In this document: positions 19,283-28,941 of the stretch, piece by piece | How positions within the stretch are numbered: position 1 is the first letter of the stretch | How the letters are laid out: every line of letters begins with the position of its first letter | Origin: Serratia nevei | GTDB taxonomy: Bacteria; Pseudomonadota; Gammaproteobacteria; Enterobacterales; Enterobacteriaceae | Reading direction: 5' to 3' | Assembly (NCBI RefSeq): GCF_037948395.1 | Contig: NZ_CP149940.1 | Location: forward strand, 868,001 to 932,000 | DNA length: 64,000 nucleotides | The notes under the pieces: model-generated | Seen by the model: the letters and a program-made list of their open reading frames with translations, nothing else | Told to the model about the DNA's origin: nothing | Database searches by the model: none | Program-made: the position numbers and the translations under genes

Positions 19283-20998
19283 ATGCCAACTCTCTCCAGG
19301 CAAGAATATGCCGGGCTGTTCGGCCCAACCACCGGCGATAAAATTCGTTTGGGCGATACGCAACTGTTTATTGAAATAGAGAAAGACCTGCGCGGCTACG
19401 GCGAGGAATCGGTCTACGGCGGCGGCAAGTCGCTGCGTGACGGCATGGGCGCCGACAACCGATTAACCAGCGATAACGTGCTGGATCTGGTGATTACCAA
19501 CGTAACGATTTTGGACGCCCGGCAAGGGGTGATCAAGGCGGACGTCGGCATCAAAAACGGCCTGATCGCCGGCATCGGCAAAAGCGGCAACCCGGCGATG
19601 ATGAACGGCGTCACGCCCGGGATGGTGGTGGGCGTCAGCACCGACGCTATCTCGGGCGAGCACCTGATCCTGACCGCCGCCGGCATCGATACGCATATCC
19701 ACTTCATTTCGCCGCAGCAGGCGGCGCATGCGCTTTCCAACGGCGTGACGACGTTCTTCGGCGGTGGCGTCGGGCCGACCGACGGCTCCAACGGCACCAC
19801 CGTGACCGCCGGGCCCTGGCATATCCACCGCATGCTGCGCGCCTTCGAGACTATGCCGGTCAACGTGGGGATGCTCGGCAAGGGGCACGCTTCGCACGCT
19901 GCGCCGCTGGTCGAACAAATCGCCGCCGGCGTGGCGGGGCTGAAAGTGCATGAGGACTGGGGCGCCACCAACTCCGCGCTGCGCCACGCGTTGCGCGTGG
20001 CCGACGACATGGATATTCAGGTGGCGGTGCACACCGACAGCCTGAATGAAGGCGGCTACGTCGAGGACACCATCGACGCCTTTGAAGGGCGCACCATCCA
20101 CACCTTCCACACCGAAGGCGCCGGCGGCGGGCACTCGCCGGATATCATCAAGGTTGCCGCGCAGATGAACGTGTTGCCGAGCTCCACCAACCCCACGCTG
20201 CCGTTCGGCATCAACAGCCAGGCCGAATTGTTCGACATGATCATGGTGTGCCACAACCTCAATCCCAATGTGCCGGCCGACGTGGCGTTCTCTGAAAGCC
20301 GGGTGCGGCCGGAAACCATCGCGGCGGAAAACGTGCTGCACGACATGGGCGTGCTGTCGATGTTTTCCAGCGATTCCCAGGCGATGGGGCGGGTCGGCGA
20401 AAACTGGTTGCGGGTGATGCAGACGGCACATGCGATGAAAGTCGCGCGCGGCAAGCTGCCGGAAGACGCGGCGGAGCACGACAACTTCCGCGTGTTGCGC
20501 TACGTGGCGAAGATCACCATCAATCCGGCGATTGCGCAGGGCATCAGCCACGTGCTGGGTTCGGTCGAGGTCGGCAAGATGGCCGATCTGGTGCTGTGGG
20601 AGCCGCGCTTCTTCGGCGCCAAGCCGAAGCTGGTGATCAAGGGGGGGATGATCAACTGGGCGGTGATGGGCGATCCCAACGCGTCGTTGCCGACGCCGCA
20701 GCCCACGTTCTACCGCCCGATGTTCGGCGCCATGGGCAAATCGCTGCAGGAAACCTGCGTCACCTTCGTCTCCGGCGCCGCGTTGCACGACGGCATCAAA
20801 GAGAAACTGGGGCTGGAGCGGCAGGTGATGGCAGTGCATAACTGCCGGGCGATCTCCAAGCAGGACATGGTGCGCAATGCGGAAACGCCGAACATCGAGG
20901 TGGATCCCGAAACCTTCGCGGTCAAGGTCAACGGCGAACACGCCACGGTGAAGCCCATCTCCACCGCCGTGCTTAATCAACGCTACTTCTTCAGCTAG
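19283..20998 (+). CDS. ureC: Urease alpha (catalytic) subunit
   Basis: Carries the dinickel active site. Nickel ligands are intact: His138 and His140 in [11 protein letters not shown], the carbamylated Lys221 in [11 protein letters not shown], His250 in VAVHTDS, His276 in [10 protein letters not shown] and Asp364 in [10 protein letters not shown]. The mobile-flap residues Cys323 and His324 lie in MVCHNLN. Each is four positions later than in the Klebsiella enzyme, in keeping with the 571-residue length. No defect is visible, so an active enzyme is expected if nickel is supplied. Confidence 0.99.
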
Positions 20999-24925: not shown

Positions 24926-25969
24926 ATGGCGGTAGTTTCCGAAGGATTGCATGGCGCGGCCCGGCGACGGGCGGTATCCCTGTTGTTGGGGCTGGTGGCG
25001 GTCAACGTCATCGTCTGGCTGCTGGCGCTGTCGGTGTTCAAAGACAATGCCGCGCTGATGGGCACCGCCTTACTGGCCTACAGTTTTGGTCTGCGCCATG
25101 CGGTGGATGCCGATCACATCGCCGCGATCGACAACGTGACCCGCAAGCTGATGCAGCAGGGCAAAACGCCGGTGGCGGTCGGTACCTTCTTCTCGCTCGG
25201 CCACTCGACCATCGTGGTGCTGGCCTCGGCCGCGATTGCCGCGACGGCGATGATGTTCAGCCGTCAGATGGGCTGGTTTCACGAAACCGGCGGCCTGATC
25301 GGCACGCTGGTGTCCTCGTTGTTTTTGCTGACGGTGGCCTTTATCAATCTGCTGGTGCTGATCTCCGTGTGGCGAGCGTTCCGGCAGGTGAAGGCGGGCG
25401 AACTGCCTGCGCATCAATCGCTGGATCTGCTGATGAGCGGCGGCGGTGTGCTGGCGCGCTGTTTCCGCCCGCTGTTCAGGCTGGTGAACCAGAGCTGGCA
25501 CATGTACCTGGTGGGTTTCTTGTTTGGCCTGGGCTTCGACACCGCCACCGAGGTCGGGCTGCTGGGGATTTCGGCCGCCGGTGCGGGCCATGGCATGAAT
25601 CTGTGGAGCATCATGCTGTTCCCGGCGCTGTTCGCCGCCGGGATGGCGCTGATCGACTCCATCGACAACTTCGTGATGATTGGCGCTTACGGTTGGGCGT
25701 TCTCCAAACCGATCCGCAAGCTGTACTACAACATGACCATCACGGCGGCGTCGGTGATCATCGCGGTGTTTATCGGCGGCATCGAAGCGCTCGGGCTTAT
25801 CGCCGACAAGCTGGCGCTGTCCGGCCCGCTGTGGGACGCCGTCGCGCGGCTCAACGATCATCTGGGGGAGATGGGCTATTGGGTGATCGCCGTGTTCATC
25901 TTCTGCTGGTTGGTGTCGGTGGTGAATTACCGCCTGCGCGGCTACGACAAACTGACGGTCAGCGGTTGA
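24926..25969 (+). CDS. High-affinity nickel permease, NiCoT (HoxN/HupN/NixA) family
   Basis: Membrane permease that imports Ni2+ (some members Co2+). The ATG at 24926 has AGGAG seven bases upstream and gives 347 residues; an in-frame GTG at 24920 is the alternative. The signature RHAVDADHIAAIDNVTR in the second membrane helix is intact, as are GTFFSLGHSTIVVL and FGLGFDTATEVGLL. It closes the urease block and supplies the metal for the apoenzyme. Confidence 0.92.
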   Translation: MAVVSEGLHGAARRRAVSLLLGLVAVNVIVWLLALSVFKDNAALMGTALLAYSFGLRHAVDADHIAAIDNVTRKLMQQGKTPVAVGTFFSLGHSTIVVLASAAIAATAMMFSRQMGWFHETGGLIGTLVSSLFLLTVAFINLLVLISVWRAFRQVKAGELPAHQSLDLLMSGGGVLARCFRPLFRLVNQSWHMYLVGFLFGLGFDTATEVGLLGISAAGAGHGMNLWSIMLFPALFAAGMALIDSIDNFVMIGAYGWAFSKPIRKLYYNMTITAASVIIAVFIGGIEALGLIADKLALSGPLWDAVARLNDHLGEMGYWVIAVFIFCWLVSVVNYRLRGYDKLTVSG

Positions 25970-26007
25970 AAAGGCGGGTGCTCGTGGATCCTGCCTGACA
26001 CCATCGG

Positions 26008-26036
26008 CCAACGGGCGGGGCGAACCCCGCCGTTGG
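26008..26036. terminator. Strong hairpin between nixA-type gene and hok
   Basis: CCAACGG-G-CGGGG (26008-26020) pairs with CCCCGCCGTTGG (26025-26036) with one bulged G and loop CGAA. It stands between two converging transcripts and just after the hok stop. No T tract follows on either strand, so efficiency is uncertain; in Hok mRNAs the 3' end also folds back to the leader. Confidence 0.5.
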
Positions 26037-26042
26037 GTTGCC

Positions 26043-26195
26043 TTACCGTTCGGATTCGTAAGCCAAAGTGGCCGCAACCTCCGAGTCTCCCAGCCTGATG
26101 CGCAGTTCGCACAGCGAACCGCGGGTTAGCCAGATGAACGCGATCAGCGTCATACAGACGATCACCAGTTTAAGTACGACCCGTTTTTGCTGCAT
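26043..26195 (-). CDS. Hok/Gef family type I toxin
   Basis: A 50-residue single-membrane-span toxin that depolarises the inner membrane when translated. Translation from the ATG at 26195 gives MQQKRVVLKL, then VIVCMTLIAFIWLTRGSLCE, then LRIRLGDSEV and AATLAYESER. The hydrophobic span, the two Cys (14 and 29), the LTRxSLCE core and the VAA-x-x-AYES end are the Hok/Gef signature. GGGAGG precedes the start. It lies antisense to the end of the urease block, next to fadE. A leader frame and a possible antisense RNA promoter overlap its 5' side. Chromosomal hok copies are often inactive; none of the coding features here is broken. Confidence 0.88.
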   Translation of the reverse strand: MQQKRVVLKLVIVCMTLIAFIWLTRGSLCELRIRLGDSEVAATLAYESER

Positions 26196-26256
26196 TTTTG
26201 ACCTCCCTATCCTTGCCTTGCGGCGGGTAAGAGGCTAACCTGATGTTGCTTGGCAT
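26170..26256 (-). CDS. Mok-like leader reading frame overlapping hok
   Basis: A 28-codon frame begins at the ATG at 26256 and ends inside hok at 26170, so it covers the hok ribosome binding site and first nine codons in another frame. In hok/sok loci a mok frame in this position couples hok translation and is the real target of Sok RNA. The frame is also open upstream of the ATG, so the true start may be earlier. Called from position only; the peptide has no family. Confidence 0.45.
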   Translation of the reverse strand: MPSNIRLASYPPQGKDREVKNAAKTGRT

Positions 26257-26345
26257 CAGAGTGGCCTCGGGTTGATAATATCGACTCGGGGCCTTTCTCT
26301 TTCTCTCCTTTGCCAAGGCTCCGGACAGAAAGATCCAGAGCACCC
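26250..26345 (+). ncRNA. Candidate Sok-like antisense RNA and its promoter
   Basis: On the strand opposite the hok leader, TTGGCA (26250-26255) and GATAAT (26274-26279) are spaced by 18 bases and would start an RNA near 26286, complementary to the hok/mok leader. The flanks contain CCTCGGGTTGA and GACTCGGGGCC, direct CTCGGG repeats like those I recall at enterobacterial hok loci. The 3' end is a guess; no clean terminator is seen. Confidence 0.4.
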
Positions 26346-26425
26346 GCCGCGCAGTCTACTCGAACTTCCTTCCCGTGAAATCCGCCGTTGCGCCAACCTG
26401 TGGCGCGATGCGCAGTTCGTGATGC

Positions 26426-26484: not shown

Positions 26485-28941
26485 TTAAGCCGCTTCGGTC
26501 TGCTGTTGGCGCTTAGACTGCGCCGCCGGCTTTTCCGGCTTGGCGGCCGCCAGCGCATCCGGCGCAAAGTCGTCCACGTTGATGGAGCGCAGACGGCTCT
26601 CTTCGGCTTTCACCAGAATTTTCGCTTCGTCGGCGCTGATCTTGCCTTCTTCCAGCGCGCGTTCCGCCAAACGATCCAGACGGGTGAACGGCAGGTTTTT
26701 GCCGGCCGCCTTGCACAGACGTTCGTGAATCGGCTCGGCGGCCATCACGTCGGCCAGCGCCGCTTCCAGCAGGCCGATTGGGTTATGTTCGCTCGGCGTC
26801 AGGTACTGGCCGCGCCCCAGACGGCTGCGGGTGGCGGAAGGTACCTGCAGGATCTTGGCCAACTGGTGATCCAGACGATCGGACGGTGCGGTATGCACAC
26901 GGCCGAGCGGGAAGACCACGAAGCGCATCGCGCCGGCGATAAAGCGGTTCGGGAAGTTACGCAGCAGGTCATCCAGCGCCTGTTCGGCTTTATGCAGGCT
27001 GTCTTGCACGCCCCAATGCACCAGCGGAAGATCTTCTTTCTGACGGCCTTCGTCGTCAAAGCGTTTCAGCACGGCGGAAGCCAAATACATCTGGCTGAGG
27101 ATGTCCCCCAGGCGAGCGGAGATACGCTCGCGGCGCTTCAGGCTACCGCCCAGCACGCCCATGGAAACGTCCGACAGCAACGCCAGGTTGGCGCTCAGGC
27201 GGTTCAATTGCTGATAGTAACGACGGGTCGCGTCCTTGGTCGGCGTGGCGCTGGTGCGGCCGTTGGTCAGGCCCAGCCAGAAGCTGCGTACCTTGTTGCT
27301 GCCAACGTGGCCCAGATGGCCGAACAGCGATTTATCGAAGGCGTTCAGATCGTTGCTCTGCGCCGCCGCCATTTCATCCAGCACATAAGGATGGCAGCGG
27401 ATCGCGCCTTGACCGAAGATCATCATGGTGCGGGTCAGGATGTTCGCGCCTTCCACCGTGATGGCGATCGGTGCGCCCTGATAGGCGCGAGCCAGGAAGT
27501 TGGATTCGCCGAGCATGATGCCTTTACCGCCGGCGATGTCCATGGCGTCAACGATCGACTGCTGGCCGCGGTGCGTACAGTGGTATTTGACGATGGCCGA
27601 CAGCACGGCCGGCTTCTCGCCCTGCACCAGCGCATAGGTGATCAGCGAAGCGGCGGCGTCCATCACATAGGTGTTGCCGGCGATGCGCGCCAACGGCTCT
27701 TCGATCCCTTCCATCTTGCCGATGGAGATCTTGAACTGACGGCGAATGTGCGCGTAGGCACCGGTCGCCAGGGCGATGGATTTCAGGCTGCCGGTAGAGT
27801 TGGACGGCAGGGTGATGCCGCGACCGACCGACAGACACTCAACCAGCATGCGCCAGCCCTGGCCGGCCATTTTCGGGCCGCCGATGATGTAATCGATCGG
27901 GACGAACACGTCGGTGCCGCGGGTCGGGCCGTTTTGGAACGGCACGTTCAGCGGGAAGTGGCGGTTGCCGATTTCCACGCCCGGCGTGCTGGTCGGGATC
28001 AGCGCACAGGTGATGCCCGGGGATTCGTTGTCGCTCAGCAGGCGGTTCGGGTCATGCAATTTGAACGCCAGGCCCAGTACGGTGGCGACCGGCGCCAGCG
28101 TGATGTAGCGCTTGTTCCAGGTCAGGCGCATGCCCAGCACCTGTTTGCCCTGCCAGTCGCCCATGCACACGGTGCCGACGTCCGGAATGGCGCCGGCATC
28201 GGAGCCCGCTTCCGGGCTGGTCAGCGCGAAGCAAGGGATCTCGTCGCCGCGCGCCAGGCCCGGCAGATAGTGGTTTTTCTGTTCTTCGGTGCCGTAGTGC
28301 TGCAGCAGTTCGCCCGGGCCGAGGGAGTTCGGCACGCCGACGGTGATCGCCAGGATACCGGAAACGCCGGCCAGTTTTTGCAGCACCATCGCCTGAGCAT
28401 AAGGAGAGAATTCCAGACCGCCGTACTCTTTCTTGATGATCATCGCGAAGAAACGGTGTTCTTTCAGGTACGCCCAGAGTTCAGGCGGCAGATCGGCCAG
28501 TTCGTGGGTGATCTGGAAGTCGTTGGCCATGCGGCAGGCTTCTTCCACCGGGCCGTCGATAAACGCCTGCTCTTCTTCCGTCAGGCGCGGTTTCGGGTAG
28601 CTGTGCAGCTTGTTCCAGTCCGGCGCGCCGCGGAACAGATCGCCTTCCCACCAGGTGGTGCCGGCGTCGATCGCCTCCTTCTCGGTGGTGGACATCGGCG
28701 GCATCACCTTGCGGAAGGCGCGCAACGCCGGTGCGGAGAGCAGGGAACGGCGCAGGGAGGAAAGGTTCAGCGGCAGCAGCACGATCGCCAGCGGCAGCAA
28801 CAGCCAGAAGCTCCACAGGCCAATCGCGCCCATGGCGGCGGTGTACGCCACCAGGATCAGGCTGCTGAGGGTAAGGTTCACTCGGTGGTAGAACACCACG
28901 CCGAGGAGAGCCAGTAAAACGACAATACTAAGAACCATCAT
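26485..28941 (-). CDS. fadE: Acyl-CoA dehydrogenase FadE
   Basis: FAD-dependent enzyme of the first beta-oxidation step, making trans-2-enoyl-CoA. At 818 residues it has the size of the enterobacterial FadE class. The N-terminus has two hydrophobic stretches (about residues 3-60) that would tether it to the membrane, then the acyl-CoA dehydrogenase domain with [29 protein letters not shown] and [19 protein letters not shown], and a DUF1974 C-terminal domain. A second ATG directly follows the first. A FadR site lies 19 bases upstream of the start. The lysozyme inhibitor gene ivy, next door in E. coli, is absent. Confidence 0.97.

Follow-up and report, generated by a model that had tools for sequence, protein, structure and literature searches.

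Among the closest known systems to the locus studied here is hok/mok/sok of plasmid R1. In R1, trimming by 39 nt converts an inert 398-nt mRNA to the active form (PMC5668327), and Sok RNA pairs first with an mRNA hairpin loop through its free 5' tail (PMC4485353); PMC4147584 also describes the mechanism. Chromosomal hok/sok loci are described for E. coli, which has several per genome, and for Erwinia amylovora. A precedent for antitoxin specificity at the level of a short tip comes from zorO-OrzO and zorP-OrzP of E. coli O157, duplicated type I loci in which the two antitoxins are distinguished by three variable nucleotides close to the 5' end (PMC3919570).

We analysed a window of 64,000 nucleotides of Serratia nevei DNA, in which an earlier note, made from the sequence alone, had proposed an unlisted chromosomal hok/mok/sok-like type I locus, and found the parts of such a locus in place. 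Positions 26043-26195 of the minus strand hold a 50-codon Hok/Gef membrane toxin frame, preceded by a ribosome-binding site (AGGGAGG, 26199-26209). Pfam HOK_GEF matched the frame with 61.1 bits (cut-off 22, E 7.5e-17), which assigns the 50-residue product to the Hok/Gef toxins of hok/sok type I systems. Together with the Rfam match described below, this confirmed the toxin frame that the note had seen in the spacer. The NCBIfam Hok family model gave 68.9 bits, under its cut-off of 73, and because of this an annotation pipeline might skip the frame; that it is unlisted in annotation is plausible, although the nearest protein cluster has 111 member sequences. The plasmid relatives listed, from a search limited to 5000 records, have at most 80% identity, and most of the 12 shown carry the name 'type I toxin-antitoxin system Hok family toxin'.

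The locus shares with R1 the toxin family, an overlapping mok frame and a Sok RNA, predicted here, with a free 5' tail, as well as an end-paired mRNA of similar length (~374 nt predicted here and 398 nt in R1). It differs from R1 in being chromosomal, between housekeeping genes, in having a mok of only 28 codons, and in a proposed target loop, CCAAGCAA, that by eye lacks the YUNR motif. The E. coli and E. amylovora loci are likewise chromosomal hok/sok systems, but a position adjacent to fadE was seen, in the family genomes compared below, only in the genus studied here.

The leader of the hok mRNA was recognised by Rfam RF01794 'sok', which matched 26193-26345 on the minus strand with 90.6 bits (cut-off 59, E 5.9e-19). 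This match lies on the hok-mRNA strand and its end coincides with the hok AUG, placing a conserved structured mRNA leader at the locus. The sequence TAGACT at 26353-26358 (minus strand) resembles a -10 element and would belong to the hok mRNA promoter, and TAGACT or TATACT was seen at the equivalent place in most of the leaders listed when their alignment was judged by eye. With TAGACT just ahead of it, the mRNA start is expected near 26346, and the transcript would extend at least to 25973. The module as a whole spans about 26358 to 25973 and takes in a 3' element whose sequence complements the 5' end of the mRNA. The interval of 26043-26345 given previously placed the locus correctly but omitted the hok promoter and this 3' element.

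The 5' end of the mRNA (GGCGGGTGCTCTGGATC, within 26328-26348, minus strand) is complementary to a fold-back (fbi-like) element, GGATCCACGAGCACCCGCC, at 25973-25991 on the same strand, and the two are paired in the predicted folds. The 3' element sits three bases past the nickel permease stop codon, and directly after hok is a predicted GC-rich hairpin (26008-26036, minus strand) that is similar in aligned copies. The 374-nt full-length mRNA was predicted to fold with paired ends (z -5.83 against 100 dinucleotide shuffles). When a 383-nt version was shortened by 45 nt at its 3' end, the predicted 5' fold changed to a local 5' hairpin and the mok start paired with the upstream leader, so that both the end pairing and the refolding after 3' trimming appear in predicted folds. 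The change in ribosome-site accessibility expected under short trimming was absent from these predictions: accessibility of the hok site was nearly constant until 100 nt had been trimmed, and that of the mok start was low, at or below 0.3, in the trimming series. One fadE-adjacent copy (L023/L054, genome G023) carries a repeat-like insertion of ~120 bp in its leader, downstream of the 5' end and ahead of the Sok hairpin; it is among the copies collected for the comparisons below.

Conservation of the upstream elements was followed in a set of 167 copies from 57 genomes, drawn from 179 distinct copies after leaving out 11 without a parsable target region and one masked partial copy; 79 are from this genus, and the 88 others come from 116 listed places, by our own sum of the table. 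The 28-codon leader frame reported to overlap the hok start was found in the window at 26170-26256 on the minus strand (ATG at 26256, stop at 26170). Its conservation among relatives, the lack of which the earlier note had named as a refutation, failed at the start codon: by a loose search of the 5' arm of the target hairpin, the mok AUG position reads ATG in 14, ACG in 49 and another triplet in 16 of the 79 genus copies, and the AUG is therefore absent from that place in 65 of them. The same position in the 88 non-genus copies reads ATG in 56, ACG in 5, TTG in 2 and otherwise in 25. Copies of the nrdB type have other ATGs elsewhere in the leader. Leaders of the metK region, for example L001 and L002, have ACG in place of the mok AUG. 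Judged by eye, metK-region copies whose loop is 8 nt long have a frame running from this ACG to the hok start, whereas a 7-nt loop goes with a broken mok frame.

On the plus strand, the likely sok promoter is TTGCCT-17-TAACCT at 26213-26241, and a similar arrangement is found in nearly all of the 167 copies. A TTG hexamer at a spacing of 16-18 is present in 79/79 genus copies and 84/88 others, and a TANNNT second hexamer in 79/79 and 85/88, the TA of the latter being partly demanded by the parser. The predicted Sok RNA runs from 26248 to 26303 (plus strand), with a 10-nt unpaired 5' tail, a terminator hairpin at 26263-26293 and a T-rich end; the promoter and terminator elements would thus give a Sok RNA that covers the mok start. 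A different promoter, TTGGCA-18-GATAAT, had been suggested for this RNA. A pattern of this type is indeed present (26250-26279, 10 of 12 positions, where a shuffle would give 0.2 on average), but it falls within the stretch predicted to be Sok RNA. As the main sok promoter it was rejected, since such a pattern occurs in 11/167 copies, all from this genus, whereas the upstream arrangement of a TTG hexamer, 16 to 18 bases and TANNNT fits nearly all copies.

The proposed antisense target is a hairpin at 26239-26261 on the minus strand, with the stem UCUGAUG/CAUCAGG and the loop CCAAGCAA at 26246-26253. It is predicted for the isolated region and for the first 120 nt of the leader, and is missing from the minimum-energy folds of the full-length and trimmed RNAs. 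A hairpin is predicted in 107 of 113 distinct target regions, but only 58 of the 113, folded alone, did better than 95% of mononucleotide shuffles. The inner arms pair at 3.9 of 4 positions, a figure favoured by reading the arms from the fold, compared with 1.8 of 4 when arms were swapped; the two arms of the predicted hairpin therefore covary between copies. By eye, the YUNR motif is not general among the target loops. The nrdB-type copies (e.g. L004, L078, L083) have two stem versions, CAUACCG/CGGUAUG and UAACG/CGUUA, which alternate blockwise, in both arms, among genomes at seemingly one site, and both versions occur in tandem in G018.

Carried over from the R1 paradigm, the transcription, processing, order of refolding, Sok binding, repression and toxicity of this locus would be as follows. 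A stable mok-hok mRNA of ~374 nt, transcribed from the minus strand, would be inert while its two ends are paired with each other. Once the 3' end is removed, the mRNA would refold and the mok start region would open, and the unpaired 5' tail of the short plus-strand Sok would make first contact with the hairpin loop at the mok start. Pairing with Sok would block mok, and hence hok, and mark the duplex for RNase III. If the supply of Sok stopped, mok-coupled Hok would be made and would damage the membrane.

The locus had been described as lying at the edge of a urease/nickel block, where it might stabilise an acquired block. The position is right: the nickel permease stop is at 25969, the fbi-like element begins at 25973 and the fadE stop is at 26485, so the module abuts the block, as it might if it had arrived with the block or served to stabilise it. 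The comparison with urease-negative Serratia that the note had asked for, however, gave the outcome it had named as fatal to stabilisation, namely hok between mtnK and fadE in relatives that have no urease block. Of the 30 genus genomes examined, 25 have hok, 7 have ureC and 26 have fadE, and an intact hok adjoins fadE in 20 of the 26 fadE-bearing genomes. It does so in 5/7 urease-positive and 15/19 urease-negative genomes (Fisher P 0.6 to 1), the 19 including G018, whose fadE site is unreadable as the contig ends there. The two urease-positive genomes without intact hok, G010 and G014, have hok deletion scars with different breakpoints, in which the 3' fold-back element remains. Arrival with, or stabilisation of, the urease block is therefore very improbable. 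In the urease-negative genome G001 the order is mtnK-hok-fadE directly, and because the mtnK stop there runs straight into the hok 3' element, hok was most likely there first, ancestral in the genus, and the urease block sits between mtnK and hok. In 149 genomes of the family, hok was found in 48 and fadE in 76; when the two lists were compared by eye, hok within 1 kb of fadE was seen only in the two genomes of this genus among them.

A mobile cassette with inverted end repeats was also considered for hok and rejected, since by eye the hok-less sites look like deletion scars and not clean empty sites. These scars are found in G002, G003, G010 and G014, and G004 has a pseudogene; the G010 scar is at a 9-bp direct repeat, CCGCCGTTG, and the other three have other breakpoints. 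Within the urease block itself, Rfam 5_ureB_sRNA matched 19433-19730 on the minus strand (76 bits, cut-off 40), antisense to the urease alpha gene, and this match may only reflect conserved coding sequence.

With a scar or pseudogene at the fadE site of five of the 26 fadE-bearing genomes, and a mok start that many copies do not keep, the locus could be a remnant in decay that has survived by chance and lost its function. However, the fadE-adjacent hok genes of 20 orthologues have a mean dS of 0.38 and a mean dN of 0.082, a ratio of ~0.22 (170/190 pairs, those with a defined dS above 0.05), which indicates purifying selection on this hok. All 79 genus copies parsed also keep the sok promoter arrangement, and the terminator and end elements seem, by eye, to be kept in most of the aligned copies listed. 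We consequently regard decay as improbable. Given the parts observed, their conservation, the purifying selection, the predicted end pairing and refolding, and the independence from urease, the locus is very probably an entire hok/mok/sok toxin-antitoxin module of type I, chromosomal and ancestral to the genus in its place between mtnK and fadE. In itself such a locus is ordinary, yet it is an example of a chromosomal hok/sok retained at a single ancestral site in a genus with several sister copies.

The genome of the window has four hok loci, next to fadE, metK, an agmatinase gene and nrdB-yfaE, with the metK-side and agmatinase-side copies 5.8 kb apart. Their target loops are CCAAGCAA for the fadE copy and CGUGACAA, CCAGACAA and CCUAGACA(C) for the others, and these are 2 to 5 mismatches of 8 apart. 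For cognate combinations the predicted energy of the 8-nt seed was -9.8 to -10.9 kcal/mol, and for non-cognate ones it was -0.8 to -7.8 kcal/mol. The two metK-region copies of this genome have identical hok genes. For metK-region pairs in 12 genomes, 36/96 loop positions differ, compared with 13/1044 in the later leader, 67/624 in the first 52 nt of the leader and 142/1872 in hok; a single genome (G009), where an early stop in one copy inflates the count, contributes 89 of these 142. These are not 12 separate events, since the positions keep separate tip sets: in this genus each hok position has its own. At a single site the loop also varied between genomes, with 2/8 loop against 2/142 other sites variable at fadE in nine genomes of the window's clade, and 3/8 against 10/139 and 3/8 against 6/139 at the two metK-region sites.

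To compare tips more widely, close pairs were defined in the set of 167 copies by a leader divergence below 0.06 outside the target region, and a tip was counted as shared when the 5-nt core was the same. Close pairs shared the core in 4/30 cases within genomes and in 156/353 between genomes, 348 of the latter lying in this genus compared with 8 of the former. If a merged tandem copy of G005, identical and with the same tip, is counted, 5/32 pairs within genomes share the core. The Fisher test (P 0.0008, or 0.0013 when the merged copy is counted) assumes an independence that neither pairs from one genome nor genomes of one genus have. Core divergence was 0.36 in 21 pairs from other genera and 0.54 in 7 pairs from this genus, against hok synonymous divergences of 0.09 and 0.06; this comparison covers 28 of the 30 pairs, two with more than 15 hok differences being excluded. 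Per genome, the tip diverges more than the rest of the leader in 15/16 and more than hok in 14/16, the exceptions being G054, with three copies and one tip, and, for hok, G095.

The pattern was then examined in a declared test set for which the prediction was fixed beforehand, comprising nine tandem arrays in eight unused genomes. These were taken from the best matches listed in 392 family genomes, and most of their genera were already in the first set. As predicted, 1/17 close pairs share the core, and the divergences were 0.46 for the core, 0.025 for the leader and 0.054 for hok synonymous sites. By our own reading 8/9 arrays show the tip pattern, the exception being G328, with two copies and one tip; in G386, two more distant copies share a tip. 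The three copies of G197 have at most 3 leader differences and 1 hok difference and three different tips, and the three tips of G273 are those also found in G038, a genome of its own genus. Close copies sharing a tip are found in G054, in two of the three G005 copies, in the nrdB-type pair of G018 and in G328.

Within one genome, then, similar hok/sok copies diverge much more strongly at the loop predicted to contact Sok than in their other parts, which suggests selection for non-interchangeable antitoxins. It is possible, though we think it the less probable account, that these tip differences are neutral. A cis-encoded antisense RNA always fits its own target, so a change in the loop is automatically matched in Sok and the loop could drift freely, while its flanks are constrained by carrying promoter and structure; moreover, the rest of Sok is complementary between sisters, so that a non-cognate duplex could still form. 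Free drift, however, sits poorly with a tip divergence above that of hok synonymous sites in both parts of the first set and again in the declared set (0.46 against 0.05), and with the many similar copies in different genomes that do share tips. On balance we lean towards selection of co-resident copies for different recognition tips, with arrays of nearly identical toxins persisting as sets of mutually non-interchangeable antitoxins. No precedent for tip diversification among hok paralogues was seen in the literature listings searched, which is not proof of novelty. The zorO-OrzO and zorP-OrzP loci differ from those considered here in that the antitoxin gene is divergent there and overlapping here, and in that OrzO/OrzP specificity was tested in cells, whereas the hok/sok specificity proposed here comes from sequence.

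If co-resident copies are indeed selected for different tips, a duplicate silenced by its sister's Sok would lose its addictiveness and could be deleted, whereas a copy with its own tip would punish its own loss. Tips would then resemble plasmid incompatibility types, and the genome studied here would hold four such types, the window locus with its loop CCAAGCAA being one. Through the tip pattern, the questions of why so many hok copies persist on chromosomes and of whether their antitoxins protect against one another's toxins become testable, and natural arrays whose copies differ at little beyond the loop provide the test material.

Tandem hok arrays occur in this genus and in several other genera. 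In G005 (L021/L090) three tandem copies lie beside fadE at a spacing of 478 bp, and in G018 (L025/L064) two tandem copies are ~545 bp apart. Four copies (L025, L026, L027 and L086) appear by eye to be chimeric, with a leader of the metK-region type and a hok frame of the fadE type, which suggests recombination between hok loci.
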